From Tachypleus tridentatus (lineage: Eukaryota; Arthropoda; Merostomata; Xiphosura; Limulidae), in assembly GCF_004210375.1 (NCBI RefSeq), contig NW_027467782.1:31165276-31229275 (forward strand): a stretch of 64,000 nucleotides of DNA. The letters run 5' to 3'. The notes beneath the pieces are model-generated. The model made no database searches, was not told where the DNA came from, and saw only the letters and a list, made by a program, of their open reading frames with translations. Made by a program: the position numbers and the translations under genes. This document shows, piece after piece, positions 18,623 to 64,000 of the stretch. Positions within the stretch are counted from its first letter, which is position 1; each line of letters starts with the position of its first letter.

Positions 18623-18705
18623 AATGCCGACATAGTTATCAACCTAATAATCCACGCGAAACCTAATACTTTAGTTAGCAAACATACGAGGACAGCTTTG
18701 AGTAA

Positions 18706-33235: not shown

Positions 33236-33394
33236 GTTTCCAAACCATTGACAAAATTATATGCACACACCTAGATCAACAACAAACAAACAATAATCAA
33301 TTCGAGGATACAACAAACTACAAAACCTTACACTGCTGCACACCACAGTGAAAAAGATAACCAACATTTGTAAAACATCTTAATAAAACAACTT

Positions 33395-38319: not shown

Positions 38320-41300
38320 CTGTGAGAAGAAAGGTAGAGCATGTTTTATAGTCATCATAATAACATTAACACATACAATAACAGAAGGCAATGTTTATGT
38401 AGAAACACGCATACAGTGAATGGATCAGTAAACTGTTTGAAGCATATCTACCAAAGATACTTGTTAACTTATATCTCACATTAGCTGCATGCTGTTCATA
38501 AACATGGACTTGTGTAACTGTTTGGATCCTTCATAAAAGTGCCAGTATTGCACATGGAATTTGACAACGAATATCAACAAAAACTTCATCACTAATTTAC
38601 ACTGCTGGTGGTTAACTGTGTGCCTTGTCTGGTTAAAATTCTTCTTCACTTTGCCATTATGGACCACTTATCAAAACTGTTAGGAAGGAAGCACAAAGGT
38701 TTCATGTTTTGTCTCTCAGAGAGAGACAAAGAAGTAATGTGAACGATTTATCAAATGTTCAGAAATTTAATGTTGTATAAATATATTACCAAAAATATTA
38801 AATAAATAAAGTAGTGCAAAATACGATAAGCAAGATAGATGATACAATAAAATCCGAAACTCTTAAATAAAAATACTTTTATGAATTGATGTTACATAAT
38901 GTAAGCTTTGGTGCAACATAAGTTTGTATAAATATCAACCTTGTTTGACACTAACTTGTAAGTTCTTTAAAAGTTTTATTTGCCTGATAATTACTTTTGT
39001 TTTCCAGTAAAAGCATAATTATCATGAATATTGTTTTTGTATCAGCATTTTTAGTAAACACTTAGTTTTATATCCCTGCAGAAGTGTAGTTTCTTTGAAT
39101 ATTCCTGTACTACATCCCAGCAGATTTCAATGATTGTACTCCTGCATGTTGTGTTGACTGACTACTACATATTTTTAACAAATAACATACTTTCACAGAA
39201 ATTTGGTGAAACATCCTTTAATATTCGTTGTTCTAGTTATTCATATGCATATTAATAGCACAATAAATTAGTAACCCTATCTCAACAGCTAATGGGTCAT
39301 AGGCCATGTCATTGCATTTGTTGACTTGCTCTTAAAGTTTTATTGAACTATTACTCTATGAACTTATCTCCCTAAGTTTGGGTTCAAACTGTACACAATA
39401 ATTCACATCTTCATATTAAACATTATTAAATTTTTTGTAATGTAAAAGTAAATATCAAACAAATGCATCTAAACGTTGATTTGTGTATGTCACATGGTAT
39501 GTTAAACTCAGTACTGGTTCAAATTAGATGTTTGTGACGCCAAAATACAAAGTCTATAGTTCCGTTTGAATTAGGAACTCAAATTATAAATATTGACAAA
39601 CTAGAACGTAAAACAGAATCTTTTGATCTTTATTTGCTGAGCTATCACTGTATTCATGCAGTGCAACAAACACAGTGGTCCTAGCTCACCTCTTTCAGTT
39701 CTGGAAATGGTCCCTTATATACATTTACTTCTAATATGCCATGTCAGTAAGCCAATGGAAGCTCAAAATTTCCCCTTAGTGATTTTCTCAGCCATTTTCA
39801 TAGAAAACAGTTTTCTTTCATTTTTTTTCGAAACAAACCTTTGTGCTGGTAAGTACAGTCTTCAGCCAGTTCAAGATTTTGTTATTGTTTGGAAACAAAA
39901 GCAGCTAAGTAATTAACTAGATAAATAATGGAATTCTATGGTACAAATGAAGAAATGTATGATTTTTTGGTTATTTAACTGTAAATATATCTGAAAACAA
40001 AAACAAATAATTTTCCTTCACATTCTCTACATGTTAAATTTCTTAAGGTGTAGCAAGCTATAAGCAGCAGAAACAAAATTGAAAGGTTATAACTAGAAGA
40101 GATAATTGTTTGCTTCACTTCTTTATTTACTGTTCTATGTTTTAAGAAAAATATGTTTAAGAAGTTGTAAGTAAATAGTAATAATACATATATTTATAAT
40201 TATTCAAACATGACTGTAATTTACCAAATACTAGTCCAATAAAACAAAGCCCAGATAGGTCACTTTGTGAAAACAAATAACAGTTTTATGTTATTGGATA
40301 TGGTAACACGAGTGCATGTGCTGTGTCATTGTAACTTCTGCATTGTTATTCAGACATGGCTTAAAGTTTAATATGGTTTGGTTTATTTTAAAGTTTGTGC
40401 AAAGCTACATGAGGGCAATCTGCACTAGCCATCCTTAATTTAGCAGTGTGAAACTAGAGAGAAGGCAGCTAGTCATCACCACACACTGCCAATTTTTATC
40501 AACAGTGGAATTGACCATAACATTATAACACTCCCATGGTTGAAAGGGTGAGCATGTTTTATGTGACGGAGATTTGAACCCACGATACTCAGATAATGGG
40601 TTGAGTGTCTTAACCACCTGGCCATGCCAGGCCGTAAAGGTGAATATAATAAAAATAATAAATCTAAGCTATTTGGTCTAAACACTTACATTTTTGTTTT
40701 ATATTCCATAGTCATTGTAGAATGAAAAAGGCATAATTAATATTCATTTCCTAAATATATTGACATGGTGATCAAAAGATTGGTCAAATCGAATGAACCC
40801 TACAGAGCTTCATTCACAAAAATAACAAAAATATAAAATTTTTCTTAAAAAATACTTGATAAAAACTATCTGAACTTTATAGGGACATTGCATGTGAAAT
40901 CTGAAAAGAAAGTTTAATCTTAAAATAAAACCTACTTTACATGTTAGATTGGCAACACGTAAAAATAAAAAGCGACAAGAAAAACATTACTTAACAATAA
41001 TCAAGAGTTGATAAAAAAAATCTGACAATTTGCATATGGAAGCCTTGAAATGTTTACTGATAATCTGCTAAATTTTGTGAACATGTGTTTACTAATTTAA
41101 AAGTAATCGAAATGTGTTGAAATGGTTATATGCTGGCAAAACTTCAAAAGTTAAAATAAACAAGATGATTAGAGAGAGAGGGGGGCAACTTACATAATTC
41201 CAAAAATTCTTTTCTCAAAATTTTGACACAATTACAGCATTTTGTTCATGTAGTTATCTTATAATAATGATTTTTTATTCTTAAATATCTTTTATAAAAA

Positions 41301-41372
41301 TAACAAATATGATTATGCTAAATTTCCACAATCAATAAATTAAAAAAAAATAGTATACAGCAATCAACAAAC
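38320..41372 (-). other. PA2G4 intron, left copy
   Basis: Non-coding apart from one long SINE (40381-40633). The stretch above about 40838 has its mirror image at the right end of the window. Confidence 0.7.
40381..40633 (-). repeat. Long tRNA-headed SINE in a PA2G4 intron
   Basis: Reverse-orientation copy: 'tttgtgcaaagctacatgag', 'tcatcaccacacactgccaa', head 'gatttgaacccacgatactc' and 'ggccatgccaggcc'. A small internal deletion removes the 'gggctactcttttac' part. Confidence 0.88.
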
Positions 41373-41467
41373 CTTCCTTTTCATATAAAACTGTGAAAGG
41401 TTCTATTAGTTTATGATTAACACATTCTACCACACCCATCCTGGCCTTCTTTTCATCTTCCAAGGCC
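41373..41467 (-). CDS. PA2G4: PA2G4 exon, left copy
   Basis: 95 nt encoding (R)[19 protein letters not shown] and [12 protein letters not shown](G). Almost identical to human [20 protein letters not shown], part of the methionine-aminopeptidase-like fold of EBP1, which lacks peptidase activity in the characterised proteins. Acceptor TTTAG and donor GTTTGT. Phases 2 and 1 match the neighbouring exons. Confidence 0.95.
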
Positions 41468-41639
41468 CTAAAGATAGAACAGAAAAGTATGTATATGTGC
41501 AATAGCAAAACAAATAGTTTAATTATTATAAATAATATTACCTGGATTTGATATACATATTCAATGAATCAGTGAAAAATAAATTCCTTTACTTTTACTA
41601 AAACATGTTCATATACTTATAACACATTATCTAGTTCTA

Positions 41640-42415
41640 GCCAACATTTTCATGATACAGATCGAATCTCAAGTGATCAATTCAGCCTTACACCCACCAC
41701 TATAATGGTACAGATATTGTGTCAATATAACAGCTGGACACACACTTATTTTTTTTTTCAACCACATTAACTCCATACACTAACCAAATAACATTTCTCA
41801 ACCTCAATATTGCAAGAACTGACACACAATTCAAAACAGAAATCCACAGAAAAATACCAATACTGGACTATAACAAAACACAACATTTTAGTATACATCA
41901 AATTTATTAATAAACCAGGTACAAAACTAAAGTCCATACTATGTAAAAACTACACTGACAAACACAACACCAACATTATTTATGAAATACAGTGTAAATG
42001 CCACAACTTTTATAATGGAGAAACAAGCAGAAAAATGGAAACTAGTTTCAATGAACACCAAAAAAAAACACCTTCACACATTTTCGAACATTGCAAATTA
42101 AATAAACACAACACAACCATGAAAAATACCAAGATACTAAGTAGAGATACAAATATATAAAAATAAAGAATCCCTACTTATAAAACAAAAAACCATAGTT
42201 AAACCAATATAAAGGAACACCTTTATGCCTATTCTAATTACTAACCTGACATCTAACTGCAACATCCCCCACAATTCTGTGCCCCTTTTCACTCTTGTTG
42301 CCAAGATATGTACCCAGCAATGGTCAATTACAAACTTTGTTGTCCGAAAGACGACCTAAAAAGGTCAAAACACCATTATGTATATTATTTTAATTAAAGT
42401 TTCAATATTCATACA
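41640..42415 (+). mobile_element. Penelope-like element: RT end, GIY-YIG region and 3' terminus
   Basis: Reads through a decayed RT end (ANIFMIQIESQ.., HPPL.WYRY) into the linker and endonuclease-type region: FINKPGTKLKSILCKNYTDK, IIYEIQCKCHNFYNGETSRK (GIY-YIG-like), NEHQKKTPSHIFEHCKLNKH. It ends with the family terminus at about 42340-42412. The frame 41810-42160 (116 codons) is the best-preserved part. Sits inside a PA2G4 intron on the opposite strand to the gene. Confidence 0.85.
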
Positions 42416-42639
42416 CACTGTTTTAAGAATACATTTATATTTCCCTTTTGACGTGGGTCAAAAGCTACATTTTTGTATTTCTTGACTCCATTCAAAATGT
42501 TATTCAACTACTATTTTATGAACTAATGTTAATAAGATTAATATGAATAATTAAAATGTAATCCAAATTTTAGTATTGTATGTTAGTTAATTTCTCAATT
42601 TAACAGAAATATTAAAAAAAAAGCCACCTAGATATTGGT

Positions 42640-42835
42640 ATGTTAAGTGCAACACCACCTACAATCCCTTACATGTTTACACTCTCGTTCCTAAGACGTG
42701 TTTGGCAACAGTCAGTTGCAAACTCCCTCTTTGGTAACCTGAAGATGACCTAAGAAGGTGGAAACGTTGTTCTCTACTTTATTTTAATAAAAGTTCTAAC
42801 AACCATACCAGCCGTCTTAAGATAAATTTTTACAC
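42640..42835 (+). mobile_element. Penelope-like element, terminal fragment only
   Basis: 'caccacctacaatcccttac', 'aacctgaagatgacctaaga', 'gaaacgttgttctctacttt', same as the ends at 33650-33800. No coding part. Confidence 0.8.
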
Positions 42836-43257
42836 TAAAATCATTCCCATCTCAAACACTTGGTGTAGAACAGACCACAGAATCTAAATTTTAAAGGTAA
42901 ACCTAGTTACAAAATGAAAAACGTTTCGACATTTACCTTGCAAACTCCTGAGCATAACAAATATTAAAGCACATACACACAAAAATATTTCACATTTATA
43001 ATTAATATATGAAAATAAAATATTTAATAAATCATTCTTTGTATGTGATAGTTGCATATTTTTCGTGTGTATAAAAGAAACATTTCATTAACAATGATTA
43101 ATCATTTAAGCAATGTAACCTACAATAAAAAGTTTTAAGTTTCTTAAGTACAACAGAGCAACTAAATAATTTGTATGAACTTTCAAATCTATTACCTTAT
43201 GTTTTAAGTATTATATTTGACATTAGACATGCATAAATAAAAAATCTTGACAAATAC

Positions 43258-43309
43258 CTCAAAGTGAAAGGCATGTTTCCAAACTTCTTTTCCACTTCAC
43301 TGAAAAATG
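43258..43309 (-). CDS. PA2G4: PA2G4 exon, left copy
   Basis: 52 nt between TTTTGCAG and donor GTATTT. Encodes (A)FFSEVEKKFGNMPFTL(R), matching human AFFSEVERRFDAMPFTLR in length. The right-arm copy lacks one of the two lysine codons. Confidence 0.95.
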
Positions 43310-44045
43310 CTGCAAAAGAAAACCAACATAATATATTCCCATTTACCCAAAGAAACTTCTAAATCACTAAAGGTTTACATTTCTGTAGAATTTTATTTTT
43401 TCATACATGTATGTGTGAGTGATACCAAGTAGAATTATGCACAACAAAACTTGCTCAAGACAAGTATTAGTACAAATATTCTTAACGTTTTTATTAACGT
43501 TTAATTTATTTGTCTACATAATCTGTTGCATTTCCAAGATACTTATTGTTTATACAATATTTTTAAACAGAGTTCTCTTCCAAGACAATATACTAACAAA
43601 GTAAAATGCCTCTACCAAAAACACAAGGGTAAACAAGTTGATCTATATATATATATATATATAAAATCATCCATACACACCTACATATGAAATCAGTAGA
43701 TACATTTCTTGAAGAAAATACAGTTACAGAAGTCATGTTTCAGATGCCTTGTTAGAAAAACCTGACGTTTTATGAATTTTTTAAAAATCAATATGAATTA
43801 TTCTAATTGCAGCCAACTACTGTAAGCCTACAGTGATTTCTTCTTAATTTTTATTTTAACACTGTGTTCAGATTACTAATAACAAATTAATGAAAAATTA
43901 AAGCTATACTTTTGAGAGACTCTTCTCGTGTTTCTCTTCTACACTTAAGTCTCAATAAATCTAACAAGACGTAAAGGTGTCTTAATGAATAAACTATTGC
44001 TTGTACCTAATGCTAAATTAAAAACAATTTTACACTATTACCTAA

Positions 44046-44841
44046 CACCCAGTGGCCACTTTATTAGGTACACCTATCTACTACTAGATAGGACCTCCTT
44101 CTGCCTCTAGAACAACCCGAATTCTTCACAATGTGGATTCAACAAGGTGCTAAAAACATTCCTTAGGGATTTTGGTCCATACTGACTCAATATCATAATT
44201 CAATTCTGGCTCCATGCTGGTTATGCCACATTCTGACCATACCATCTGCATGTTGCAGAAGAAATCGAATTTTTTCAGAACAGGCAATGTTTTTTCAATC
44301 TTTAATCTTCCAGTTTTGGTGATCCCATGCCTACTGTAGCTTCGTCGTCCTGTTCTTAGATGACAGAAGTGGAAGCTGGTAAGATCTTCTGCTGATGTAG
44401 CCAAACTGCTTCAACTTTCAATGTGTTGTGCATTCAGTGATGCCCCTCTGAAACTCAATGTTGTAAAGAGTGGTTATTTTAATATTTGTGGCATTTCTCT
44501 TAGCTTGAACGAGTCTGACCATTCTCTTCTGACCTCTCTCATTAACAAGGTGTTTTCACCCACATAACTGCTGCTCACTGGATGTTTTCTTTTTTGCACC
44601 ATTCTCTATAAACTCTAGAGATTGTAGTACATAAAAATCTCAGTTTCTGAGATGCTGGAACCATCACACCTGACACCAACAATCATTCCATGGTCAAAGT
44701 TGCATCTTCCCCATTCTAATGTTTGGTCGAACAACAACTGAACTATTTGACCGTGTCCACATGCTTTATATAGCGAGTCACAGCCACATTATTCACTGTT
44801 TGGTTATTTGCAGATGTACCTAATGAAGTAGCCACTGAGTG
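44046..44841 (-). mobile_element. Non-autonomous Tc1-like element of fish-type lineage
   Basis: Inverted ends: cagtggccactttattaggt at the left and its inverse 'acctaatgaagtagccactg' at the right. The minus strand keeps the front of a Tc1 transposase: HGMIVGVR, SISET, a REW..K block, then SAEDLTSFHFCHLRTG and a FDFFCNMQMVWSE remnant of the WSDESRF region, then jumps to the last residues (W.KIPKECF) and the terminus. So the catalytic core is mostly deleted. The wording and ends closely resemble a Tc1 lineage widespread in teleosts. Confidence 0.85.
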
Positions 44842-45792
44842 TATATATTACAAAAGAAAACTAGAAGCTCAAAATGTAAGGTTATGTAAAACTTGCCAAA
44901 ATTTTAATTTATTGTATTACATCTCATTTTTATATAAAGAAAGTCTGAGAGGTGTATTATACAGATCCTGCTTTAAATGTTTCCTCACATCAAAATGAGA
45001 AACCTTACATATTACTCTGGAAAAATATTCAATTTTTGTTTTCCTAAAACACTTGATAAATTAATGTGAGTAAGCAAATATGAAATACATTAAAGTATAG
45101 GTTGTACAAGTCTCAAGGAAGTCAGAACATACAACAATAATATTCCCAACCTTTATCAAAAAACAAGCTAAATTCCACCATGTTCAATATTACTGAATCA
45201 TGTTTGGACTGATTTATGAATATATTTTGACACCTCTTGTATTAAATGGAAACAGTATTGGAAACATTGACTCATATATTTATCTAATTAATAACTCTAT
45301 ATCGTCATGTGTAAAACATTTCTTCATAATGGTATAACTGCATATCCAAGCTAAAAAGTCAGCATTGTTGTTCACTGTGTAAATATGGCTGACATAGCGT
45401 CTGTCCCACATGAAGAATAAAAGTGTCAATTCATAACGCAAAAAAGTTAAAATAGTTTGCTTTCTCAGTGTCTTGATAAAATCTTTTGCTGACAATTTTG
45501 AAGAAAAGGAAATTTATGAGGTTTTGATAAAACAACAAGAGAAATATTGAGTTCACTGTAGCTTCAATAATTCCTGATGTATTTCAGGCACACTATTGTA
45601 TTAAAGAAGTTTAAAACATTAATATCAATCATCACAAACTAGTATGATGGACTGGGGATCAGACCCCATTAACTGCTTTCAATGAAAACAGGAGTGAGTT
45701 ATACAGAGATTCTAGCAACCCTTATTTAATGAAAAGATGCATATTAGGGTTATAGTTTTTTCATTACTTACATTTAATAAAGGTGTACTGAC

Positions 45793-45871
45793 CTACAGAT
45801 GCTTTCATCTTTAGTTGATAAATTTCATCTGTCTTCTTGTACACTGTTGTCCTTGTGTCCATTTCTCGGCC
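45793..45871 (-). CDS. PA2G4: PA2G4 exon, left copy, most 5' exon seen
   Basis: 79 nt between acceptor CACAG and donor GTCAGT. Encodes GREMDTRTTVYKKTDEIYQL, then KMKASV with a split final codon. Corresponds to human [20 protein letters not shown] followed by MKTSR. The residue before the split codon is Val here but the conserved Arg in the right copy. Upstream exons (the bulk of the protein) are not found anywhere in the window. Confidence 0.93.
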
Positions 45872-46279
45872 CTGTGAATACAATTTGTTAGAAACAAAAG
45901 ATTAAAAGACATTTGTCGATAATTCATTTTAATGTAAAAATACAGAAATGATGATATCTTTGTAAATTTAAATTTCACTTTAGTGAAGAAATTTTATTAT
46001 TACATGCTTACAACAGATTATCATCCATTTTTTCAATATTATTTATTGCTGCACTTGTCACGAGAAAGATTTGAAACTTTTGTTTGGCAACCAATGAATT
46101 ATTTAATGTATTATAATTTTTTTAGCAAATTTTCTAACTTGCACAGGGTTTACCAATTCATAAAAATTTCAGTTGATAACATATCTTTAGATGTTTTTCA
46201 CCTGTTTATGCATTGAATATCTGAACCACTGACACTGGAAACATTAGAGAGAGTTAGAAACATATGACTGTACCTTATA

Positions 46280-47215
46280 TATTAGGTAACTTGCCTTTAG
46301 AAAAGCATGTGGATATGGTACTGTAAATGTCAAGGTAATTCAGTCCTAGCAAGTGGAGATATGGAGCACAGTTGAAATGCCTTGGCTGAAGAAACCAGCG
46401 AGGATCTCCAACTCAGGGATGTTCTTCAAATCCCTCTCAATAATAACTCCTCATGAGAAATTCAATGTATCATGGGGTGTACATAATGAGTATACCCCCA
46501 ATAGACTTACAACTGAGGAGGAGTTTAGTGTGTTTCAGCACAGGTGTTTCCACCAAGATGTTGCCAGACTGTGAAGAGTCAGTAAACCACTTTAAAGTGT
46601 GGTCAGACAAAGAATGAAGTTTAAGAAAATTAGGTACAGATATCGAGTGACTTGGAGACTGTTGTTCAAAGTCTTCAAGATGTGGTCATTTACCAATGAG
46701 CTGTTTTTTACTATTTCATTTTCATTGAGATTTGGGAGATCCATAGTACAATGAGAAAGGTTCAGTGCCCATTGAGCCCGTCAACCATGGATTCAAGGAA
46801 TGCACTACAATGATAAATAAGGACACTGAAGCAACACCAAGGTTTTGTGGGAGGTATACCTAAACACCAGCATCAGATAAAATTTACAAAAAAACTGTTG
46901 AAAATGCCCAAAACTGATACTCACCTGACCCTAGACCAACAGAACTAGCCAACTGACCCTTGGAGGTGGAGGACCCAAAATCACCAATTCATGTGAATTC
47001 AAGGTCAAAGTGATGTAGTGGGGTTGGACCCCTCAACCACCAGGATCCTCTTCTCACCTTCATTGATCACCCTGCACAGCAAACATGTGGGTGAGTTTAG
47101 GTCACTGAGGAGGTAAACTGGAAAGACAGAACTTTGTCTGGGAGGCCCCCTCACTACATACAAGCATCCACACTGAGAGGACATGTAATGAATATTTCCA
47201 AGAAATAACAAATAT
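46280..47215 (-). mobile_element. LINE ORF1 relic (Jockey-type)
   Basis: Minus reading shows, with many stops, the order typical of these ORF1 proteins: an RILVVEGSNPTTSL start, later GNILVETPVLKHTKLLLSCK, YTPHDTLNFS.GVIIERDLK, IPELEILAGFFSQGISTVL and ITLTFTVPYP. No intact frame. The same relic lies inverted at 57290-58200. Confidence 0.6.
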
Positions 47216-47639
47216 TTGTGGTTTTACTATATTTTTTTATTGTGATTTGTTTACAGATAAAGAATTATAGGCATTATTATATTAAAACAAATATAAATAC
47301 AGTACTAGAAGTAACAGTGGAAACAGTTACTAAGAAAGAATATATAAAAGACAAATACTATGAGAATGCCACTCGTTTATAATGTGAAAATGAAATGAAG
47401 TACAAGCAGTTATACTATGCCCAGTAGTAGTATGAATTCAATCATAATTTTTAGGACCGAAATACTGATGACAAGTAGGTAGAAATTAATTTTGGCAAGT
47501 CTAGAATACTCTTTGCAAAAGAAGTGGCAAGACTCCACATTTTAGTGGCATTTGTATGCAATACATGAAACTGACATTCTAATAATAAAAGTGGTTGAGA
47601 TAGAAACCCCAGACTCTCCATAACTTGTGCTATGTATCA

Positions 47640-48150
47640 CAGGATACATAAGTATGAGGTAGATAATTAAGTGTAGATCTGGCCAATAACCTTAAGGTGT
47701 GAATGTTACCTTTAGAACAGTAAGATACACAATGGCATAAAGTGGTCAGAGATGAGGTGAAGTTGTTTGCAAACAGCTGCTGAGAAAAGGCAGCTGAAAG
47801 GTTAAAACAAGCATTTGACCACAACAGTGGAACAAACAAAGATAAAGCTGAATGCTTTTTACAGATGAATACAAGTTATAATTGTTTAGTACAATCAACA
47901 ATAGTTTATTCAACAATGACAACAGAGAGAAGTATGGTATCATATCAATGTATGACATCTACAGTGAAGCATGGTGGGGAATCAATACAAGTGGAAAGCT
48001 GCATCTCATCCAACCAAGGTACAAATTTTGCTATACACTAATGAACCAAACAAAACTGCAGCTGTATCAAAACAGTGCACCCCATAATTCTTGGCACTAC
48101 AGAAATCCATTAGGTAGTATACCAGTCTGAATATCTGGGAAATGACATAT
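47640..48150 (+). mobile_element. Tc1-like transposase relic, another lineage
   Basis: Around 47830-47990 the plus strand keeps LQMNTSYN.. and MTSTVKHGGESI, equivalent to the PTVKHGGGSIMVWG block of Tc1 transposases; the rest is badly decayed. Mirror copy at 56320-56830. Confidence 0.5.
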
Positions 48151-49590
48151 GTAGTCCTTCACAATAGCATAAAATATTGACACAAATGAGAATCAATTGA
48201 TCATCCAAATACCACAAAACGTCCTAAATTTGCACTGAAAAACAGAAGAGGCACCTTTTTACTCGCAGTTTTATCAATTATCTTTCTGCCATTGCAAACA
48301 CACAAATCTGTGTTACCAGCATATCATAACACAATGCATGCACTAAGCATTCAAATGTGAAATATTACACAGGCCACAGAATGGTGATAAAGGAAACCCT
48401 ATTACCACAAAGAAAAACAATCACTCTCCAAACAGACACAGTACATAGCTAACACAGTGGACAGATATGGTAAAACTACTAGTTCATTGTTTCAAGTTGG
48501 GTTGAATGCTGAATCACAATTGGCTAAAACAGCTAACTCTTTTGCTAAACTTATGAAAATTTCATCAGGAATATTATAACACTTGCATTTCCTCAAGTGT
48601 TAATACATGTGGGCTGCTCTTACAATTTTGGCTTCATGGTAATTCAGTAACCCAAGCCTTCTTCTGAGAAAATGAAACAAAAATGGAGCATACTGGGTTA
48701 AAGAAAAGTAACGTGGCTGGTGAAAAAAATCAAAATGTGAATGAACTTTGTGATTCTGAGACTGATTCAAAGGAAAAAATATAGAAACTCTCCAGTACTT
48801 GTTCTAAACCCATACCTGATATTAATAGCCACAAAGACTTATTCTCACCCATGCCTTTGATTCCCCAAATAAGCAAGTGTTCACATACGCACTTCTCAAA
48901 AAAAAGAGAAAATTTGACTATTCATGGAAGAATGAGTGGTCTTAGTTGCAATTCAATGTAGATTAGGAGTTATATTCTGTGGATTTTTAGAAAGTGGTCA
49001 AATTTCTCTGATAGCCATTTCCAGTTGCTTGTGGGGTCTTGTAAGTTATATGCCTTCAAAGAACTCTTCAAAAACATGGAGAAAATGTTGAGACCTCAAA
49101 CGTGAACAAATGTAGAAAGCATAGGAAACCATAAACATCTGTAAAGGTGAGTTCACTGTAATTTCTAAATATTTGTCTGTATTGACAATAAAAACACAAC
49201 ATGCATATATTACACAAAAAACTAGCAATTTCCTGATTACACTCACAGCATAGTTTCACAATGCACTTAAAAGTTATCATACTCTGAATGTCACAAGGTA
49301 CCTTTCTCCAAAGTGAAACATAGTGTAACCCTAATACAATATTTTGAATGAAAAAGTAGGTGTAAATATTAGTACATTCCACTTCAGGTAGAGTCAAACA
49401 AGGAAATGAAATCAACTTGATAGATTCCATCTTTCCAATTGGCTTACAATTACTTTCATTTCACTAAGTTTAAACAAACGTCTTTAGGAAAATGAAATAT
49501 CCTAGCAGTAATTTTGTAAAACATACAAAAAAACCTTAGGACTAGTAGCATTACCCTTATTCAAAATCAAGTCTAATTTAACTTAATTGC
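48150..49590. other. Decayed element sequence, unassigned
   Basis: Minus-strand equivalent in the right arm (56137-55817) keeps a 106-codon frame (KYYTGHRMVVKETPLPQRKQ...) that I cannot assign. It may be the front of the hAT relic that follows. Confidence 0.3.
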
Positions 49591-49599
49591 AAAGCAGTT

Positions 49600-50960
49600 T
49601 TAACATGGCCTTAAGAAATCCATTTTCTCTTAAATTACTTGTCTAGTGAGCAAAATGAGAAGTTTATAAAGCTTTACTCAACAGGATATTGCATTGCAAA
49701 ATATGACATGTCTGTATCTGGCAAGAAATAGTGCAAGGTCATGTTTTCACTGATAATGAACACCAAAGTTTTTGCTTAGGATTGTAAATGTTAGCAATGC
49801 ATGGCAGAAAAAGCTTGTTGGATTTAGGTCAGATGGAGAAAGTATCAACTATGGTTCAAATGGTAGCATAGTAATCTTCCTGTAAAAACATGATGCATCT
49901 TGTAGGAATTCACTATATATCACACTAATTAGAGCTCACTATTTTGGATACATGTAAAGGGATAAAGCATGTAATCGAGTTTCAAACCAAAATGAGCAGC
50001 ATAATCAATTTTTGTTCAAACACTTTGATACATTTGCAAGAAATGAAGACTGCTGATTTGTTGAATAAAGTGACCAAAAAATTTGGGAAGTGGATTATCA
50101 TTTGATAGGCTGCTATAAAGCACAGGTTCACGAGTTATATGAAAACTAGAAAACCACAGTTTGTCCCCTTATATATATTGCTTCTAGATCAAACTCTGAT
50201 GAAGCTTCTGTTACCAAGGGGCACTTAAGGATGATCAAATCAGTTTATTTTACTTTCTCTCACAATGCAGCACCTTTCATTAAAAATTATGTACCAGTTA
50301 ACTTCTTCCTAGTCAGATAATTTAATCTTTGCTGACACTATGAATGAGATCATAACCACCCTACAAAAGTTAAATCAAATGAATACACAAGATGTACATC
50401 AAATTATGGAAATGAGTAAATATTTTGTATTTGAGTAGGTATGCGAATTAGATTTCAATCAGATGTTGGCAAGTATATAATTATTCTAAAATTTAGATCC
50501 AAAGTGCTGGGCAACAGGATCTAACAAGCTGCCAAACTATAGCAAAGACTAGCTTAAGAATCTGATCATTTACCACACTGAATGTTTATTTTCCAGTACG
50601 TCTGGTGGTCATGATTCAGAGGAGAGAGGCCAACATTCAAGTGAGCCACCCAAGCAGACTGTGATGCAAGAATATGAACACATTAAAAAAAAAAAAAAAT
50701 GTATCAAAACCTGTCCCTGCAAATAAAAGTTTATTTTTTCCCATGTTAAAGAAACTTCTTGGTGAAGAGTTTCACCATATTCTCCACTTAGGCAAATTAG
50801 TCCTAACAGCACTCTTTCTGTCTATAAATACAGCAGTATGTTAAAAGGGATTTTTCAGTTATGAAGAGAATCAAAAGTGACAACAAGACAAGGCCGATGG
50901 GATACACACTGTCAGTCCTGATGGTCATTTTTATTGATGGCCTCTGGTAAGCCAGTTTGA
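49600..50960 (+). mobile_element. hAT-type transposase relic (ZNF862-like)
   Basis: Despite stops, the plus strand follows a hAT-type core: SDGESINYGSNGS.. (right arm), KNMKHLVGIHCISH.LELTILD (the conserved IHCIAHRLEL block), TCKG.KHV, LQEMKTADLLNKVTKKFGKW, then TKGHLRMIKSVYF and a later SGGHDSEERGQHSSEPPK / ANKSLFFPMLKKLLGEEFH segment. Mirror copy on the minus strand at 53560-54900. No terminal repeats identified. Confidence 0.55.
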
Positions 50961-51714: not shown

Positions 51715-52214
51715 NNNNNNNNNNNNNNNNNNNNNNNNNNNNNNNNNNNNNNNNNNNNNNNNNNNNNNNNNNNNNNNNNNNNNNNNNNNNNNNNNNNNNN
51801 NNNNNNNNNNNNNNNNNNNNNNNNNNNNNNNNNNNNNNNNNNNNNNNNNNNNNNNNNNNNNNNNNNNNNNNNNNNNNNNNNNNNNNNNNNNNNNNNNNNN
51901 NNNNNNNNNNNNNNNNNNNNNNNNNNNNNNNNNNNNNNNNNNNNNNNNNNNNNNNNNNNNNNNNNNNNNNNNNNNNNNNNNNNNNNNNNNNNNNNNNNNN
52001 NNNNNNNNNNNNNNNNNNNNNNNNNNNNNNNNNNNNNNNNNNNNNNNNNNNNNNNNNNNNNNNNNNNNNNNNNNNNNNNNNNNNNNNNNNNNNNNNNNNN
52101 NNNNNNNNNNNNNNNNNNNNNNNNNNNNNNNNNNNNNNNNNNNNNNNNNNNNNNNNNNNNNNNNNNNNNNNNNNNNNNNNNNNNNNNNNNNNNNNNNNNN
52201 NNNNNNNNNNNNNN
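51715..52214. other. Assembly gap of exactly 500 N
   Basis: A round 500-N run at the centre of the inverted repeat. This length is a default for scaffold joins, so the true distance is unknown. Confidence 0.99.
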
Positions 52215-52344
52215 ATTATCTTTTTTATTAAATTGGTGTTACTTCAGTCTGTAACATTGACATGAGATATTGTCCTCACCTGTTGTGATAACCCTGCTTC
52301 ATTTACTTTGTATTTTCTGCACCAAGCATTATGCATCTTTTTTT

Positions 52345-53050
52345 TTAGAAGTCTTTTTTAATAACTATCAGGTAGGATTTTAACACTGTATTGCTTTTAA
52401 TTGTAAATAGATGTTTTATACAAGTGTAATTTTCAAATTGTTTAGAATTGTGTGATCCATTTGTATCATGTAGAACACTTTGATTTCCACTGTCATACAG
52501 TTTATCAAAAGTATAAATGTCAAGGAAATATTTTCTAAATGTCTTATGTTGCTCTCCCAAATCTAGCCACTTGTTTGGTTGCCTGTCTACAAAGAATAAT
52601 TACATGAGAACTTTGTAAAGGCCTGGTTGTGGTTATGAGTGTTCCATAAACCTCTTTATAGTTAAGATATTATTTCAGCACAGGTTTGTATAGTTGGCAT
52701 CATTGTGTCTTTCTGGAAGGTGGAATCCTTTTTTATGAGTTATGCTTTTGAGGGTATGGCATGATGGATCAGAATCCATCCATACTTCTAAGTAGGAAAG
52801 AAAGTGATGACATCACTGGCTGCATTGTGGGAATTTTATCATGAGCAGCTGGTGAGCTCATCTTCTCAAAGTCCTCACCAGCTCATAAAAGTTTTCAAAC
52901 TCTGGTAAGCACAATATGTGGTTTGATAAGCATCTTTGTTTGGTGTTTCACAAACATGCTATAGACTTGGAGAGGCAGATATATGATTATTTTTATTTAC
53001 TGATTTATTTGATGGAAATCTTCTAAGATTGTTAATCTGTTTCTGTATAA
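52345..53050 (-). mobile_element. Penelope-like element, right arm, with about 450 bp absent on the left
   Basis: 52475-52575 mirrors the left arm at 51480-51580. 52600-53050 has no partner on the left, where the sequence jumps from 51430 to 51480. The minus strand of the extra part reads MDGFPSCHTLKSITHKKGFH and NDANYTNLC.NNILTIKRFM, plausibly the RT-thumb region of the same element. Inside 52215-52475 the arms are no longer alike. Confidence 0.6.
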
Positions 53051-53559
53051 AAACACAACATTATTTAACTCTTTCTGTCTCATTCATTTGTAGCATCACT
53101 TCAAAAACACCACAATTTGAAATTTTCATATACTCACTGCCATCTCAGAACTTAGAGAGGTGTATATTAATGAAGTTATTGATCCACATTAAGAAATATG
53201 TGGCAGTAATGCTAGAGTTAAGTAATTTCAATACAATAAAAACTGAGAAAACCCATGGGACTAGGGATACATCTCACTCATTATTAGCGAATTATGGACA
53301 ATAATTGTTAGATCGTTAAAACAGTCATTGGTTGAAGAAATTTTTTTTCTGTATTTACAAAATCTTTTCTTTCACATTTCATCTCAGGTGTACAATATAT
53401 TTATGAATTTTGTGTGTGACTTTTCATATTGTTTTCAAACCTAGGGTTTGGTTCATTTACTTATGGTGGTTGTGAAGATTTGTTTCTGGTCTCCTTTAGG
53501 GTTTTCCTGCCTTTTACATAGAGGTGTATTGCAAGGTGAAGATCAAAATGGCTTACCTG

Positions 53560-54900
53560 AGGCCATCAATCAAAATGACCATCAGGACTGACAGTGTGTG
53601 TATCCCATCGGCCTTGTCTTGTTGTCACTTTTGATTCTCTTTGTAACTGAAAATTCCCTTTTAACATACTGCTGTATTTATAGACAGAAAAGAGTGCTGT
53701 TAGGACTAATTTGCCTAAGTGGAGAATAAGGTGAAACTCTTCACCAAGAAGTTTCTTTAACATGGGAAAAAATAAACTTTTATTTGCAGGGACAGGTTTT
53801 GATACATGATGTTTCATGTGTTCATATTCTTGTATCACAGTCTCCTTGGGTGGCTCACTTGAATGTTGGCCTCTCTCCTCTGAATCATGACCACCAGACT
53901 TACTGGAAAATAAACATTCAGTGTGGTAAATAATCAGATTCTTAAGCTAGTCTTTGCTATAGTTTGACAAGTTGTTAGATCCTGTTGGCCAGCACTTTGG
54001 ATCTAAATTTTAGAATAATTATATACTTACCAACATGAGATTAAAATCTAATTAGCATACCTACTCAAATACAAAATATTTACTCATTTCTATAATTTGA
54101 TGTACATCTTGTGTATTCATTTGATTTAACTTTTGTAGGGTGGTTATGATCTCATTCATAGTGTCAGCAAAGATTAAATGATCTGACTAGGAAGTAGTTA
54201 ACTGGTGCATAATTTTTTAATGAAAGGTGCTGCATTGTGAGAGAAAATAAAATAAACTGATTTGATCATCCTTAAGTGCCCATTGGTAACAGAAGTTTCA
54301 TCAGAGTTTGATCTGGAAGCAATATATATAAGGTGACAAACTGTGATTTTCTAGTTTTTCATATAACTCATCAACCTGTGCTTAATAGCAGCCCATCAAA
54401 TTTTGGTCACTGTATTCAACAAATCAGCAGTCTTCATTTCTTGCAAATGTATCAAAGAGTTTGAACAAAAATTGATTATGCTGCTCATTTTGGTTTGAAA
54501 CTTCGGTTACATGCTTCATCCCTTTACATGTATCCAAAATAGTGAGTTCTAATTAGTGTGATATACAGTGAATTCCTACAAGATGCTTCATGTTTTTACA
54601 GGAGATTACTATGCTACCATTTGAACCATAGTTGATACTTTTCTCCATCTGACCTAAATCCTACAAGCTTTTCTGCCATGCATTGCTAACATTTACAATC
54701 CTAAGCAAAAACTTTTGATGTTCATTATCAGTGAAAACATGACCTTGCACTATTTCTTGCCAGATACAGACATGTCATTTTTTGCAATGCAATATCCTGT
54801 TGAGTAAAGCTTTATAAACTTCTCATTTTGCTCACTAGACAAGTAATTTAAGAGAAAATGGAGTTCTTCAGGCCATGTTAAAACTGCTTTGCAATTAAGT
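53560..54900 (-). mobile_element. hAT-type transposase relic, right-arm copy
   Basis: Mirror of 49600-50960. The frame 53838-53566 (90 codons) preserves the ANKSLFFPMLKKLLGEEFH segment better than the left copy, where a poly(A) expansion (50683-50699) interrupts it. Confidence 0.55.
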
Positions 54901-56319
54901 TAAATTAGACTTGATTTTGAATTAGGGTAATGCTACTAGTCCTAAGTGTTTTTTTTTTGTATGTTTTACACTATTACTGCTAGGATACTTCATTTTCCTA
55001 AAGACATTTGTTTTAAACTTAGTGAAATGAAAGTCATTGTAAACCAATTGGAAAGATGGAATTTATTAATTTGATTTGATTTCCTTGTTTGTCTCTACCT
55101 GAGTGGAATGTACTAATATTTGCACCTACTTTTTCATTCAAAAATATTGTATTAGGGTTACACTATGTTTCACTTTGGAGAAAGGTACCTTGTGACATTC
55201 AGAGTATGATAACTTTTAAGTGCATTGTGAAACTATGCTGTGAGTGTAATCAGGAAATTGCTAGTTTCTTGTGTAATATATGCATGTTGTGTTTTTTATT
55301 GTCAAATATTTAGAAATTACAGTGAACTCACCTTTACAGATGTTTATGGTTTCCTATGCTTTCTACATTTGTTCACGCTTGAGGTCTTTAACATTTTCTC
55401 CATGTTTTGAAGAGTTCATTGAGGCATATAACTTACAAGACCCACAAACAACTGGAAATGGCTATCAGAGAGAAATTGACCACTTTCCAAAATCCACAGA
55501 ATATATCTCCTAATCTACATTGAATTGCAACTAAGACCACTCATTCTTCCATGAATAGTCAAATTTTCTCTTTTTTTTGAGAGAGTGTATGTGAACACTT
55601 CCTTATTTGGGGAAGGCATGGGTGAGAATAAGTCTTTGTGGCTATTAATATCAGGTATGGGTTTAGAAAAAGTACTGCAGAGTTTCTATATTTTTCCTTT
55701 GAATCAGTCTCAGAATCACAAAGTTCATTCACATTTTGATTTTTTCACAAGCCACATTACTTTTCTTTAACCCAGTATGCTCCATTTTGTTTCATTTTCT
55801 CAGAAGAAGGCTTGGGTTACTGAATTACCATGAAGCCAAAATTGTAAGAGCAGCTCACATGTATTAACACTTGAGGAAGTGCAAGTTTTATAACATTTTT
55901 GATGAAATTTTTTATAAGCTTAGCAAAAGAATTAGCTGTTTTAGCCAATTGTGATTCAGCATTTAACCTAACTTGAAACAATGAACTAGTAGTTTTACCA
56001 TATCTGTCCACTGTGTTAGCTATGTACTCTGTCTGTTTGGAGGGTGATTGTTTTCTTTGTGGTAATGGGGTTTCCTTTACCACCATTCTGTGGCCTGTGT
56101 AGTATTTCACATTATGCAGAATACTTAGTGCATGCATTGTGTTGGTAACACAGATTTGTGTGTTTGCAATGGCAGAAAGATAATTGATAAAACTCAGAGT
56201 AAAGGTGCCTCTTCTGTTTTTCAGTGCAAATTTAGGACGTTTGTAGTATTTGGATGATCAATTGATTCTCCATTGTGTCAATATTTTGTGTTATTGTGAA
56301 GGACTACATATGTCATTTC

Positions 56320-56830
56320 CCAGATATTCAGACTGGTACACTACCTAATGGATTTCTGTAGTGCCAAGAATTATGAGGTGCACTGTTTTGATACAGCTGC
56401 AGTTTTGTTTGGTCCATTAGTGTATAGCAAAAATTCATACCTTGATTTGATGAGAAGCAGCTCCCACTTGTATTGATTCCCCACCATGCTTCACTGTAGA
56501 TGTCATACATTGATATGATACCATACTCTCTCTCTGTTGTCATTGTTGAATAAACTGTTGTTGATTGTACTGAACAATTATAACTTGTATTCATCTGTAA
56601 AAAACATTCAGCTTTATCTTTGTTTGCTCCACTGTTGTGGTCAAATGCTTATTTTAACCTTTAAACTGCCTTTTCTCAGCAGCTGTTTTCAAACAACTTC
56701 ACCTCATCTCTGACCACTTTATGCCATTGAGTATCTTACTATTCTCAAGGTAACATTCACACTTAAGGTTATTGGCCAGATCTACACTTAATTATCTACC
56801 TCATACTTATGTATCCTGTGATACCTACCA
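56320..56830 (-). mobile_element. Tc1-like transposase relic, right-arm copy
   Basis: Mirror of 47640-48150, with an 88-codon frame at 56594-56328. Confidence 0.5.
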
Positions 56831-57289
56831 CAAGTTATGGAGAGTCTGGGTTTTCTGTCTCAACCACTTTTATTATCAGAATGTCAGTTTCATGTATTGC
56901 ATACAAATGCCACTAAAATGTGGAGTCTTGCCACTTCTTTTGTAAAGAGTATTCTAGACTTGTCAAAATTAATTTCTACCTACTTGTCATCAGTATTTTG
57001 GTCCTAAAAATTATGATTGAATTCATACTACTACTGGGCATAGTATAACTGCTTGCACTTCATTTCATTTTCACATTATAAAGGAGTGGCATTCTCATAG
57101 TATTTGTCTTTTATATATTCTTTCTTAGTAACTGTTTCCACTGTTCTGCTTCTAATACTGTATTTACACTTGTTCTAATGTAATAATGTCTATAATTCTT
57201 TATCTGTAAACAAACCACTATAAAAAATTTAGTAAAACCACAATTTTTTGTCATTTCTTAGAAATATTCATTACATGTCCTCTCAGTGT

Positions 57290-58200
57290 GGATGCTTGTA
57301 TGTAGTGAGGAGACCTCCCAGAGAAAGTTCTGTCTTTTCAGTTTACCTCCTCAGTGACCTAAACTCACCCACATGTTTGCTGTGCAGGGTGATCAATGAA
57401 GGCGAAGAGGATCCTGGTGGTTGAGGGGTCCAACCCCACTACATCACTTTGACCTTGAATTCACATGAATTGATGGTTTTGGGTCCTCCACCTCCAAGGG
57501 TCAGTTGGCTAGTCCTATTGGTCTAGGGTCAGCCTGCATTACCAGTTTGGGCATTTTCAACAGTTTTTTTTGTGAATTGTATCTGATGCTAGTGTTTGGG
57601 TATACTTCTCACAAAACCCTGATGTTACTGCAGTGTCCTTATTTATCATTGTAGTGCATTCCTTGAATCCATGGTTGACAGGGTCAATGGGCACTGAACC
57701 TTTCTCATTGTACTATGGATCTCCCAAATCTCAGTGAAAATGAAATATTAAAAAACAGCTTATTGGTAAATGACCACATCTTGAAGACTTTGAACAACAG
57801 CCTCCAAGTCATTTGATATCTGTACCTAATTTTCTTGAACTTCATTCTTTGTTTGACCAAACTTTAGGGTAAAAGTCTCCTTTTAATCACAAAGGAATAA
57901 AGTGGTTTATTGACTCTTCACAGTCTGGCAACATCTTGGTGGAAACACCTATGCTGAAACACACTAAACTCCTCCTCAGTTGTAAGTCCATTGGGGTATA
58001 CTCATGATGTACTCTCCATGATAGATTGAATTTCTCATGAGGAGTTATTATTGAGAGGGATTTGAAGATCCCTGAGTTCAAGATCCTTGCTGGTTTATTC
58101 AGCCAAGGCATTTCATCTGTGCTCCATATCTCCACTTACTAGGACTGAATTACCTTGACATTTACATTATTATATCCACATGCCTTTTTTTAAGGCAACT
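57290..58200 (+). mobile_element. LINE ORF1 relic, right-arm copy
   Basis: Mirror of 46280-47215. Confidence 0.6.
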
Positions 58201-58613
58201 TACCTGATATATAAGGTATAGTCATATGTTTCTAACCCTCTCCAATGTTTCCAGTGTCAGTGGTTCAGACATTCAATGCATAAACAGGTGAAAACATCTA
58301 AAGATATATTATCAACTGAAATTGTTATGAATTAGTAAACCCTGTGCAAGTTAGAAAATTTGCTAAAAAAATTATAATACATTAAATAATTCATTGGTTG
58401 CCAAACAAAAGTTTCAAATCTTTCTCATGAGAAGTGCATCAATAAATAATATTGAAAAAATGGATGACAGTCTGTTGTAAACATGTAATAATAAAATTTC
58501 TTTACTAAAGTGAAATTTAAATTTACAAATATATCATTTCTGTATTTTTACATTAAAATGAATTATTGAAAAATGTGTTTTAATCTTTTGTTTCTAACAA
58601 ATTGTACTCACAG

Positions 58614-58692
58614 GGCCGAGAAATGGACACAAGGACAACAGTGTACAAGAAGACAGATGAAATTTATCAATTAAAGATGAAAGCATCTAGAG
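58614..58692 (+). CDS. PA2G4: PA2G4 exon, right copy
   Basis: 79 nt, acceptor CACAG and donor GTCAGT. Encodes GREMDTRTTVYKKTDEIYQL, KMKASR. It keeps the Arg conserved in human PA2G4 that the left copy has as Val. No upstream exon lies between here and the gap. Confidence 0.93.
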
Positions 58693-59629
58693 GTCAGTAC
58701 ACCTTTATTAAATGTAAGTAATGAAAAAACTATAACCCTAATATGGATCTTTTCATTAAATAAGGGTTCCCAGAATCTCTGTATAACTCGCACCTGTTTT
58801 CATTGAAAGCAGTTAATGGGTCTGATCCCCAGTCCATCATACTAGTTTGTGATGATTGATACTAATGTTTTAAACTTCTTTAATACAATAGTCTGCCTGA
58901 AAATACATCAGGAACTATTGAAGCTACAGTGAACTCAATATTTCTCTTATTGTTTTATCAAAACCTCATAAATTTCCTTTTCTTCAAAATTGTCAGCAAA
59001 AGATTTTAGCAAGACACTGAGAAAGCAAACTATTTTAACTTTTTTTGCGTTATGAATTGACACTTTTATTCTTCATGTGGGACAGACGCTATATCAGCCA
59101 TATTTACACCGTGAACAACAATGCTGACTTTTAGCTTGGATACACAGTTATACCATTATGAAGAAAAGTTTTACACATGACAGTATAGAGATATTAATTA
59201 GATAAATATATGAGTCAATGTTTCCAACACTGTATACATTTAATACAAGAGGTATCAAAATATATACATAAATCAGTCCAAACATGATTCAGTAATATTG
59301 AAGATGGTGAAATTTAGCTTGCTTTAGGTTGGGAATATTTTTGTTGTATGTTCTGACCTCCTTGAGACTTGTACAACCTATATTTTAATGTATTTCATGT
59401 TTGTTTACTCACATTACTTTATCAAGGGTTTTAGGAAAAAAATTAATATTTTTCCAGAGTAATTTTTAAGGTTTCTCATTTTGATGTCAGGAAACATTTA
59501 AAGCATGATCTGTATAATATACCTCTGAGACTTTATTTATATAAAAATGGGATGTAATACAATAAATTAAAATTTTGGCAAGTTTTACATAACCTTACAT
59601 TTTGAGCTTCTAGTTTTCTTTTGTAATAT

Positions 59630-60425
59630 ATACACTCAGTGGCTACCTCATTAGGTACATCTGCAAATAACCAAACAGTGAATAATGTGGCTGTGACTCA
59701 CTATATAAAGCATGTAGACGGGTCAAAAGTTCAGTTGTTGTTCGACCAAACATTAGAATGGGAAGATGCAACTTTGACCATGGAATGATTGTTGGTGTCA
59801 GGTGTGATGGTTCCAGCATCTCAGAAACTGAGATTTTTATGTACTACAATCTCTAGAGTTTATAGAGAATGATGCAAAAGAAAAAAAACATCCAGTAAGC
59901 AGCAGTTATGTGGGTGAAAACACCTTGTTAATGAGAGAGGTCAAAAGAGAATGGTCAGACTCGCTTGAAGCTAAGAGAAATGCCACAAATATTAAAATAA
60001 CCACTCTTTACAACATTGAGTTTCAGAGGGCATCACTGAATGCACAACACATTGAAAGTTGAAGCAGTTTGGCTTCATCAGCAGAAGATCTTACCAGCTT
60101 CCACTTCTGTCATCTAAGAACAGGACAACGAGGCTACAGTAGGGATGGGATCACAAAACTGGAAGATGAAAGATTGAAAAACATTGCCTGTTCTGAAAAA
60201 TTTGATTTCTTCTGCAACATGCAGATGGTATGGTCAGAATGTGGCATAACCAGCATGAAGCTGGAATTGAATTATGATATTGAGTCAGTATAGGCGAAAA
60301 TCCTAAGGAATGTTTCTAGCACCTTGTTGAATCCACATCGTGAAGAATTCAGGTTGTTCTAGAGGCAGAAGGAGGTCCTATCTAGTAGTAGATAGGTGTA
60401 CCTAATAAAGTGGCCACTGGGTGTT
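59630..60425 (+). mobile_element. Non-autonomous Tc1-like element, right-arm copy
   Basis: Mirror of 44046-44841 at the corresponding place in the same intron, so it was inserted before the two arms separated. Confidence 0.85.
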
Positions 60426-61116
60426 GGGTAATATTTTAAAATTGTTTACTTTAATTTAGCATTAGGTACAAGCAATAGTTTATTCATTAAGACATCTTTC
60501 GTCTTGTTAGATTTACTGAGACTTAAGTGTAGAAGAGAAACACGAGAGGAGTCTCTCAAAAGTATAGCTTTAATTTTTCATTAATTTGATATTAGTAATC
60601 TGAACACAGTGTTAAAATAAAAATTTAGAAATCACTGTAGGCTTACAGTAGTTGGCTGCAATTAGAATAATTCATACTGATTTTTAAAAAAATAATAAAA
60701 CTTCAGGTTTTTCTAACGAGGCATCTGAAACATGACTTCTGTAATTGTCATATGTAGGTGTGTATGGATTTATTTTTTTTTTAGATCAATTAGTTTACCC
60801 TTGTATTTTTGGTAGAGGCATTTTATTTTGTTAGTATATTATCTAGAAGAGACTCTGTTTAAAAATATTGTATAAACAATAAGTATTTTGGAAATGCAAC
60901 AGAATATGTAGACAAATAAATTTAATGTTAATAAAACCCAAGAATGTTTGTACTGATAATTATCTTGAGCAAGTTCAGTTGTGCATAATTCTACTTGCTA
61001 TCACTTACACACATACATGTATGAAAAAATAAAATTCTACAGAAATGTAAACCTTTAGTGATTTAGAAGTTTCTTTGGGTAAATGGGAATGTGTTATGTT
61101 GGTTTTCTTTTTGCAG

Positions 61117-61165
61117 CATTTTTCAGTGAAGTAGAAAAGTTTGGAAACATGCCTTTCACTTTGAG
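61117..61165 (+). CDS. PA2G4: PA2G4 exon, right copy, one codon shorter
   Basis: 49 nt. Encodes (A)FFSEVEKFGNMPFTL(R): one AAG codon missing relative to the left copy and to the human RR pair. Frame and splice phases are kept. Donor reads GTTATT instead of GTATTT. Confidence 0.93.
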
Positions 61166-61614
61166 GTTATTGTCAAGATTTTTTTATTTATGCATGTCTA
61201 ATTTCAAATATAATACTTAAAACATAAGGTAATAGATTTGAAAGTTCATACAAATTATTTAGTTGCTCTGTTGTACTTAAGAAACTTAAAATTTTTATTG
61301 TAGGTTATATTGCTTTAATGGTTGATGATCATTGTTAATGAAATGTTTCTTTTATACACACAAAAAATATGCAACTATCACATACAAAGAATGATTTATT
61401 AAATATTTTATTTTCATATATTAATTATAAATGTGAGATATTTTTTGTGTGTATGTGCTTGAATATTTGTTATGCTGAGGAGTTTGCAAGGTAAATGTCG
61501 AAACGTTTTCATTTTGTAACTAGTGTTATGTTTACCTTTTAAAATTTAGATTCTGTGGTCTGTTCTACACCAAGTGTTTAAGATGGGAATGATTTCTAGC
61601 ACAAAAATGTATGT

Positions 61615-61800
61615 TAAGACGGCTGTTATGGTTGTTAGAACTTATATTAAAATAAGTAGAGAACAACGTTTCCACCTTCTAGGTCATCTTCAGGTTACCA
61701 AAGAGAAAGTTTGCAATTGACTGTTCCCAAGCACATGTCTTAGGAACGAGTGTAAACATGTAAGGGATTGTAGGTGGTGTTGCACTTAACATACCAATAT
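61615..61800 (-). mobile_element. Penelope-like terminal fragment, right-arm copy
   Basis: Mirror of 42640-42835 ('ggtcatcttcaggttaccaa'). Confidence 0.8.
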
Positions 61801-62004
61801 CTAGATGGCTTTTTTTTTGAAATATTTCTGTTAAATTGAGAAATTAACTAACATACAGTACTAACATGTGGATTACATTTTACTGTTTCATATCAATCTT
61901 ATTAACATTAGTTCATAAATTAGTAGTTGAATAACATTTTGAAAGGAGTCAAGAAATACAAAATGTAGCTTTTGACCCACGTCAGTAGGAAATATAAATG
62001 TATT

Positions 62005-62785
62005 CTTAAAGCAATTGGTATGAATATTGAAACTTTAATTAAAATAATGTACATAACGGTGTTTTGACCTTCTTAGGTCGTCTTTAGGACAACAAAGTTT
62101 GTAATTGACCATTGCTGGGTACATATCTTGGCAACAAGACTGAAAGGGGCACAGAATTGTGAGGGATGTTGCAGTTAGATGTTAGGTTAGTAATTAGAAT
62201 AGGCGTAAAGGTGTTCCTTTATATTGGTTTAACTATGGTTTTTTTTTTTTATAAGTAGGGATTCTTTATTTTTTATATATTTGTATCTCTACTTAGTATC
62301 TTGGTATTTTCATGGTTGTGTTGTGTTTATTTGATTTGCAATGTTCAAAACGTGTGAAGGTGTTTTTTTTTGGTGTTCATTGAAACTAGTTTCCATTTTT
62401 CTGCTTGTTTCTCCATTATAAAAGTTGTGGCATTTACACTGTATTTCATAAATAATGTTGGTGTTATTTTTTGTCAGTGTAGTTTTTACATAGTATGGAC
62501 TTTAGTTTTGTACCTGGTTTATGAATAAATTTGATGTATAGTGAAATGTTGTGTTTTGTTATAGTCCAGTATTGGTATTTTTCTGTGGATTTCTGTTTTG
62601 AATTGTGTGCAGTTCTTGCAATATTGAGGTTGAGAAATGTTATTTGGTTAGTGTATGGAGTTAATGTGGTTGAAATAAAAAAAGTGTGCATCCAGCTGTT
62701 ATATTGACACAATATCTGTACCAGTATAGTGGTGGGTGTAAGACTGAATTGATCACTTGAGATTCGATCTGTATCATGAAAATGT
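62005..62785 (-). mobile_element. Penelope-like element, right-arm copy
   Basis: Mirror of 41640-42415. The minus frames 62712-62464 and 62891-62661 keep ANIFMIQIESQVINS, HPPLYWYRY (the region of the catalytic YxDD) and KPGTKLKSILCKNYTDK. Confidence 0.82.
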
Positions 62786-62839
62786 TGGCTAGAACTTGTG
62801 GCATGTGATTGCCCAGATTTAAGCCATTTATTTGTAGGT

Positions 62840-62960
62840 CAGTTTTCAAACTTTTTTTTAACCTGAAGATGATCTCAGAAGGTCGAAACATTGTTCTTTA
62901 TGTTAGTTTAAAAGTTTTGTTACCCACACCAGTTTTCTTGAGAATACATTTTCAGTCATT
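62840..62960 (+). mobile_element. Additional Penelope-like terminus, only in the right arm
   Basis: 'aacctgaagatgatctcaga', 'aggtcgaaacattgttcttt', 'ttacccacaccagttttctt'. No partner in the left arm. Confidence 0.7.
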
Positions 62961-63301
62961 TTCTTGTATGTCGGGTAAATATAAGTATTTGGGCCATTTT
63001 CGATGCAGACATTAATAGTTTTACATAAAAGATGAAAAACTTGTATTACTCATTGTGATAATGTTAATCGTTAACATATAAAGCTAATGTTATTGTTAGG
63101 TTTTTAAAGCTACATTGTTTTATGTGGTTGATTTGAATAGATAATGTGTTATAAGTATATGAAGATGTTTTAGTAAAGTAAAGGAATTTATTTTTCACTG
63201 ATTCATTGAATATGTATATCAAATCCAGGTAATATTATTTATAATAATTAAACTATTTGTTTTGCTATTGCACATATACATACTTTCTGTTCTATCTTTA
63301 G

Positions 63302-63396
63302 GGCCTTGGAAGATGAAAAGAAGGCCAGGATGGGTGTGGTAGAATGTGTTAATCATAAACTAATAGAACCTTTCACAGTTTTATATGAAAAGGAAG
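63302..63396 (+). CDS. PA2G4: PA2G4 exon, right copy
   Basis: 95 nt with the same protein as the left copy ([31 protein letters not shown]). Acceptor TTTAG at 63297-63301, donor GTTTGT at 63397. The following exon would lie past the window end. Confidence 0.95.
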
Positions 63397-63581
63397 GTTT
63401 GTTGATTGCTGTATACTATTTTTTTAAATTTATTGATTGTGGAAATTTAGCATAATCATATTTGTTATTTTATAAAAGGTATTTAAGAATAAAATCATTA
63501 TTACAAGATAACTACATGAACAAAAATGTTGTAATTGTGTCAAAATTTTGAGAAAAAGAATTTTTGGAATTATGTAAGTTG

Positions 63582-63585
<4 letters not shown>

Positions 63586-63613
<28 letters not shown>
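63586..63613 (+). repeat. CT microsatellite
   Basis: About 14 CT units. The mirror site near 41173 has only a few GA units followed by a G run, a length difference expected between alleles or after duplication. Confidence 0.95.
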
Positions 63614-64000
63614 AATCATCTTGTTTGTTTCAACTTTTGAAGTTTTTGCCAGCATATAACCATTTCAACACAGGCATGGTCCCTGTGGTTGACCCTGTAA
63701 CCCTTTTGTGCTTATTACAGTTTTCATTCGATTACTTTTAAATTAGTAAACACATGTTCACAAAATTTAGTAGATTATCAGTAAACATTTCAAGGCTTCC
63801 ATATGCAAATTTTCATATGTTTTTATCAACTCTTGATGTTTGTTTAATCATGTTTTTCTCATCGCTTTTATTTTTACATGTTGCCAATCTAACATGTAAA
63901 GTAGGTTTTATTTTAAGATTAAACTTACTTTTCAGATTTGACATGCAATGTCCCTATAAAGTTCAGATAGTTTTTATCAAGTATTTCTTGAGAAAAAGTT

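Follow-up and report, generated by a model that had tools for sequence, protein, structure and literature searches.

PA2G4 exons and neighbouring features

The window, by which is meant the whole stretch of 64,000 nucleotides of Tachypleus tridentatus DNA analysed here, carries exons of the gene PA2G4 in two copies, a left one and a right one. The exons were located by a tblastn search that took human PA2G4 as the query, and the residues given below are those of the human protein:

45797..45874, minus strand: left copy, exon for about residues 236-262
43257..43310, minus strand: left copy, exon for residues 264-281
41371..41469, minus strand: left copy, exon for residues 281-313
38192..38320, minus strand: left copy, exon for residues 313-355, outside the mirrored stretch described below
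58611..58688, plus strand: right copy, exon for about residues 236-262
61116..61166, plus strand: right copy, exon one lysine codon shorter than on the left
63300..63398, plus strand: right copy, exon for residues 281-313, with 0 substitutions in 99 bases against the left copy

Three exons are common to both copies, each of which reads away from a scaffold gap lying between them. The fourth exon was seen on the left only; its right counterpart would fall beyond the window. A composite peptide made from the exon translations aligns to residues 238-354 of the 394 in human PA2G4 (E 8.3e-43) and to the same residues of the 394-residue PA2G4 chain 3j2i_A, and its best structure chain is PDB 6swa chain t, a match to the C-terminal sequence of PA2G4 with E 6.7e-43. 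For residues 1-235, the same settings gave no convincing sense-strand match in either arm (best E 2.7 on the left and 1.3 on the right) nor a convincing match elsewhere in the window, in a search which found the later exons at E 8e-16, 3e-5 and 0.05 on the left and at E 1e-15, 0.002 and 0.008 on the right and which, its weakest exon match standing at E 0.05, short or diverged exons could escape. A weak match to residues 218-228, placed identically in both arms, was rejected as chance, being a short stretch between stops that is not protein-like onward. Since residues 1-235 were not convincingly found in either arm, the gap appears to cut PA2G4, with the 5' half hidden on both sides. The cut appears to lie, in both copies, in an intron upstream of the exon that starts at about residue 236.

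Among the other features of the window, an Rfam scan returned a full-length U1 spliceosomal RNA gene (34003-34166, minus strand; 126.3 bits at an Rfam cut-off of 69.5), about 4 kb past the last PA2G4 exon found, and nothing besides, and a scan for tRNA genes found none. A Pfam scan of 10 chosen open reading frames left six without a match, including both frames that hold single PA2G4 exons. The only domain above its cut-off was a reverse transcriptase (RVT_1, E 1.1e-31) in the open frame at 9607-10899 on the minus strand, a retrotransposon remnant; the other matches stayed below theirs. The 388-residue open frame at 19331-20494 (plus strand) contains internal repeats of 251 bp at 92% and of 162 bp at 96%, and has no Pfam match above cut-off. 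A local direct duplication pairs 15105-15700 with 17394-17986 and 16386-16842 with 18200-18700, the pieces being 73-93% alike and spaced by about 2,286 and 1,814 bases. Copies of a short interspersed repeat, which from its appearance we take to be tRNA-derived, lie in both orientations at 8042-8323, 15771-16047, 30118-30411, 36839-37025 and 40377-40640.

Mirrored arms on either side of a scaffold gap

The PA2G4 copies are part of a much larger inverted repeat, the elements of which are, from left to right:

40836..51589, plus strand: left arm as far as visible, its outer end fixed by the window edge opposite (self-BLAST)
51590..51714, plus strand: left contig end, with a copy of a dispersed repeat from about 51602 that is cut by the gap
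51715..52214, no strand: 500-N scaffold gap, the sole gap in the window
52215..52462, no strand: right contig end, whose best match elsewhere in the window reaches only E = 0.015
52463..64000, minus strand: right arm, matching the left arm in inverted orientation and truncated by the window end (self-BLAST)

When the window was compared with itself on opposite strands by BLAST, the dominant inverted match paired 41633-51423 with 62796-53072 over 9,896 columns at 93.2% identity, gaps counted. It is extended outwards by a match of 40839-41633 with 63997-63138 and inwards by one of 51422-51580 with 52634-52472, and looser scoring gives the limits 40836 and 64000 on the outside and 51589 and 52463 on the inside. 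The best inverted piece scores 14,852 bits; when the right arm was shuffled 20 times, no score exceeded 31.3 bits. The presence of an inverted repeat in the sequence is confirmed, and with it the description in the first-pass annotation of two arms of about 11 kb that mirror each other. The same annotation had both arms ending in one and the same PA2G4 intron, which merely reflects where the window stops: the right arm reaches base 64000, so that the apparent outer limit of the left arm is only the position opposite the window edge, and is without weight as evidence. The full repeat may extend beyond 11 kb.

The centre of the repeat had been described as a round 500-N scaffold gap, and it indeed consists of exactly 500 N. 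The gap lies between the arms, which cease to match before they reach it, leaving about 125 bp unmatched on the left and about 248 bp on the right. Some Hi-C scaffolders insert 500 as their default gap. The use of 500 Ns when joining scaffolds is stated in passages of two assembly papers (PMC10942973, PMC9835750). The sequences that abut the gap are unlike each other. The dispersed repeat copy at the left contig end is 76-77% identical to copies at 33364-33471, 41867-41964 and 62467-62565, of which the last two sit at matching places within both arms, and a search of the right contig end found no counterpart of it. This indicates that the two contigs differ structurally where they break.

One explanation for such an arrangement is a real inverted duplication, in which two PA2G4 regions would stand head-to-head, their 5' halves and promoters lying in a gap that is truly far longer than 500 bases, or in which both copies would have been truncated by rearrangement. 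Biological palindromes and inverted segmental duplications occur, such as on sex chromosomes, and two long inverted arms with a short centre are what the present locus has in common with them. However, continuous sequence through the centre is expected of a real palindrome, and a 500-N placeholder is found instead; PA2G4 appears interrupted in both arms, and the same 5' half is found in neither; the contig ends are unlike; and the arms are several per cent apart, as described below.

Divergence of the arms and of the PA2G4 copies

The first-pass annotation had asked for a self-alignment to obtain the identity of the arms. This was run and, in three local pieces, gave 440 substitutions over 10,563 aligned sites (4.2%), comprising 251 transitions and 189 transversions, together with 131 indels, 92 of them of 1 bp. 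A whole-length MAFFT alignment put the divergence at 6.2% (660/10,703 sites) and was set aside in favour of the local pieces because 171 of its mismatches fall in the last block, where the non-matching contig ends are forced together. About half of the 1-bp indels (45/92) fall at homopolymers, and sequencing error may therefore account for part of the difference between the arms. Two larger blocks lie between the aligned pieces:

52635..53071, no strand: 437 bp found in the right arm only (self-BLAST)
62797..63138, no strand: about 342 bp found in the right arm only, inside repeat-derived sequence

With these blocks, the spread of substitutions and the one-codon indel in an exon, the earlier description of scattered substitutions and of indels ranging from 1 codon to 450 bp is upheld. 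So is that of a difference in microsatellite length, an AG run being 17 bases longer in the right arm than in the left. Such differences bear directly on a further explanation, a palindromic chimera formed during library preparation or sequencing when a molecule is read through and back. False palindromes of read length have been described in assemblies, according to a passage in PMC9516828, but the arms of a chimera should copy a single molecule, whereas those found here differ by hundreds of substitutions, by many indels and by both large blocks, and are separated by a scaffold gap. A chimera of this kind is highly improbable.

The PA2G4 exons carry four substitutions in 233 sites, versus 436 in 10,330 elsewhere in the arms (Fisher P 0.066). 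Two of the four are silent and the other two fall in one codon. This codon closes a PA2G4 exon and normally encodes a conserved arginine; the right copy (58689-58691) has the arginine, the left copy (45794-45796) a valine. The indel within an exon leaves the right copy without one lysine codon. All exons are open and, read by eye, the splice sites look intact in both copies. This pattern is weakly in line with two copies that have been kept, and would be so for alleles and duplicates alike. The open exons with plausible splice sites, as well as the lower divergence of the exons, also speak for a real inverted duplication. Along the arms the divergence is uneven (variance/mean 1.81 for blocks of 250 sites, 2.63 for 500 and 2.21 for 1,000), and it shows no trend with distance from the centre (Spearman 0.07, P 0.66). 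Lacking a trend towards or away from the centre, the arms give no sign of ongoing gene conversion, which counts against a real inverted duplication, although an old duplication remains compatible with these data; neither the unevenness nor the absent gradient decides between alleles and old duplicates. Taking both sides together, a real inverted duplication is regarded as quite unlikely.

The uneven divergence would equally fit a misjoin of contigs from two real loci, be they paralogous segments or the homoeologous chromosomes of a polyploid, and a divergence of 4.2% is ordinary for a fairly recent duplicate. However, such a misjoin requires that both loci were broken at the same place beside the gap and became adjacent by mistake, and it offers no reason for their joint placement, unlike an allelic relationship; we consider it unlikely. 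As a difference between alleles, 4.2% substitutions is high for most animals. The genome mean heterozygosity of one horseshoe crab species is 0.8%, as given in a passage of PMC7210998, and if that mean applies here, the arms would differ by about five times as much. A higher divergence is, however, to be expected among contigs that escape collapse, an expectation in line with statements in PMC8081667.

A probable head-to-head join of allelic contigs and its consequences for annotation

When a haploid assembly retains both alleles of a region, the Vertebrate Genomes Project speaks of a false heterotype duplication (PMC8081667, PMC9516828), and these duplications are stated to arise where haplotypes diverge (PMC8081667). 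Such duplications are recognised, according to PMC9516828, by read depth falling to half, by an assembly gap separating the copies, by discordant reads and by k-mers of one-copy multiplicity, and a case listed there has exons missing from both gene models. Among their published marks are also genes cut in such a way that exons are lost, next to a gap that parts the two copies (PMC9516828, PMC8081667). The locus described here resembles such a duplication in having diverged copies on one scaffold, an assembly gap (the 500 N at 51715-52214) between them, a cut gene and missing exons. It also shows the spread of substitutions and indels that marks a false heterotype duplication, a trait which is not specific to alleles. 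Its geometry differs from that of the cases described in passages of the two papers, which are adjacent or tandem copies (PMC8081667, PMC9516828); the arms here stand head-to-head. The word "inverted" does not occur in the texts of PMC8081667 or PMC9516828.

The repeat is most probably an assembly artefact, in which two allelic contigs were joined in opposite orientation across a gap. The first-pass annotation had favoured haplotigs scaffolded in this manner, and the gap, the cut gene, the shared repeats, the small differences and the unlike contig ends support that reading. On this view the arms are alleles from a single diploid individual, whose homologous chromosomes would have been assembled into separate contigs owing to a divergence of about 4% and to numerous indels. 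The two contigs would break off within one upstream intron of PA2G4, close to where the alleles differ in structure by the repeat copy on one side, and this dispersed repeat may itself have caused the contig break. A scaffolding step would then have placed both contig ends together, in opposite orientation and with the 500-N placeholder between them, the join presumably being prompted by Hi-C or similar contacts linking the two copies. Little probability falls to a head-to-head PA2G4 duplication that is long-lived, about 4% diverged and has an unassembled centre in which the 5' halves of both copies lie, or to haplotypes long held apart, for example by an inversion; the divergence of such haplotypes, if real, would be several times that of the remaining genome.

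Left uncorrected, the scaffold would yield two PA2G4 gene models, each without its 5' half, as well as an apparent inverted gene duplication and an inflated copy number. The finding is chiefly of use in cautioning annotators not to count PA2G4 twice. Should the rare alternative be true, either a housekeeping gene would have persisted for long as an inverted duplicate, or the locus would hold a pair of haplotypes of unusual age.
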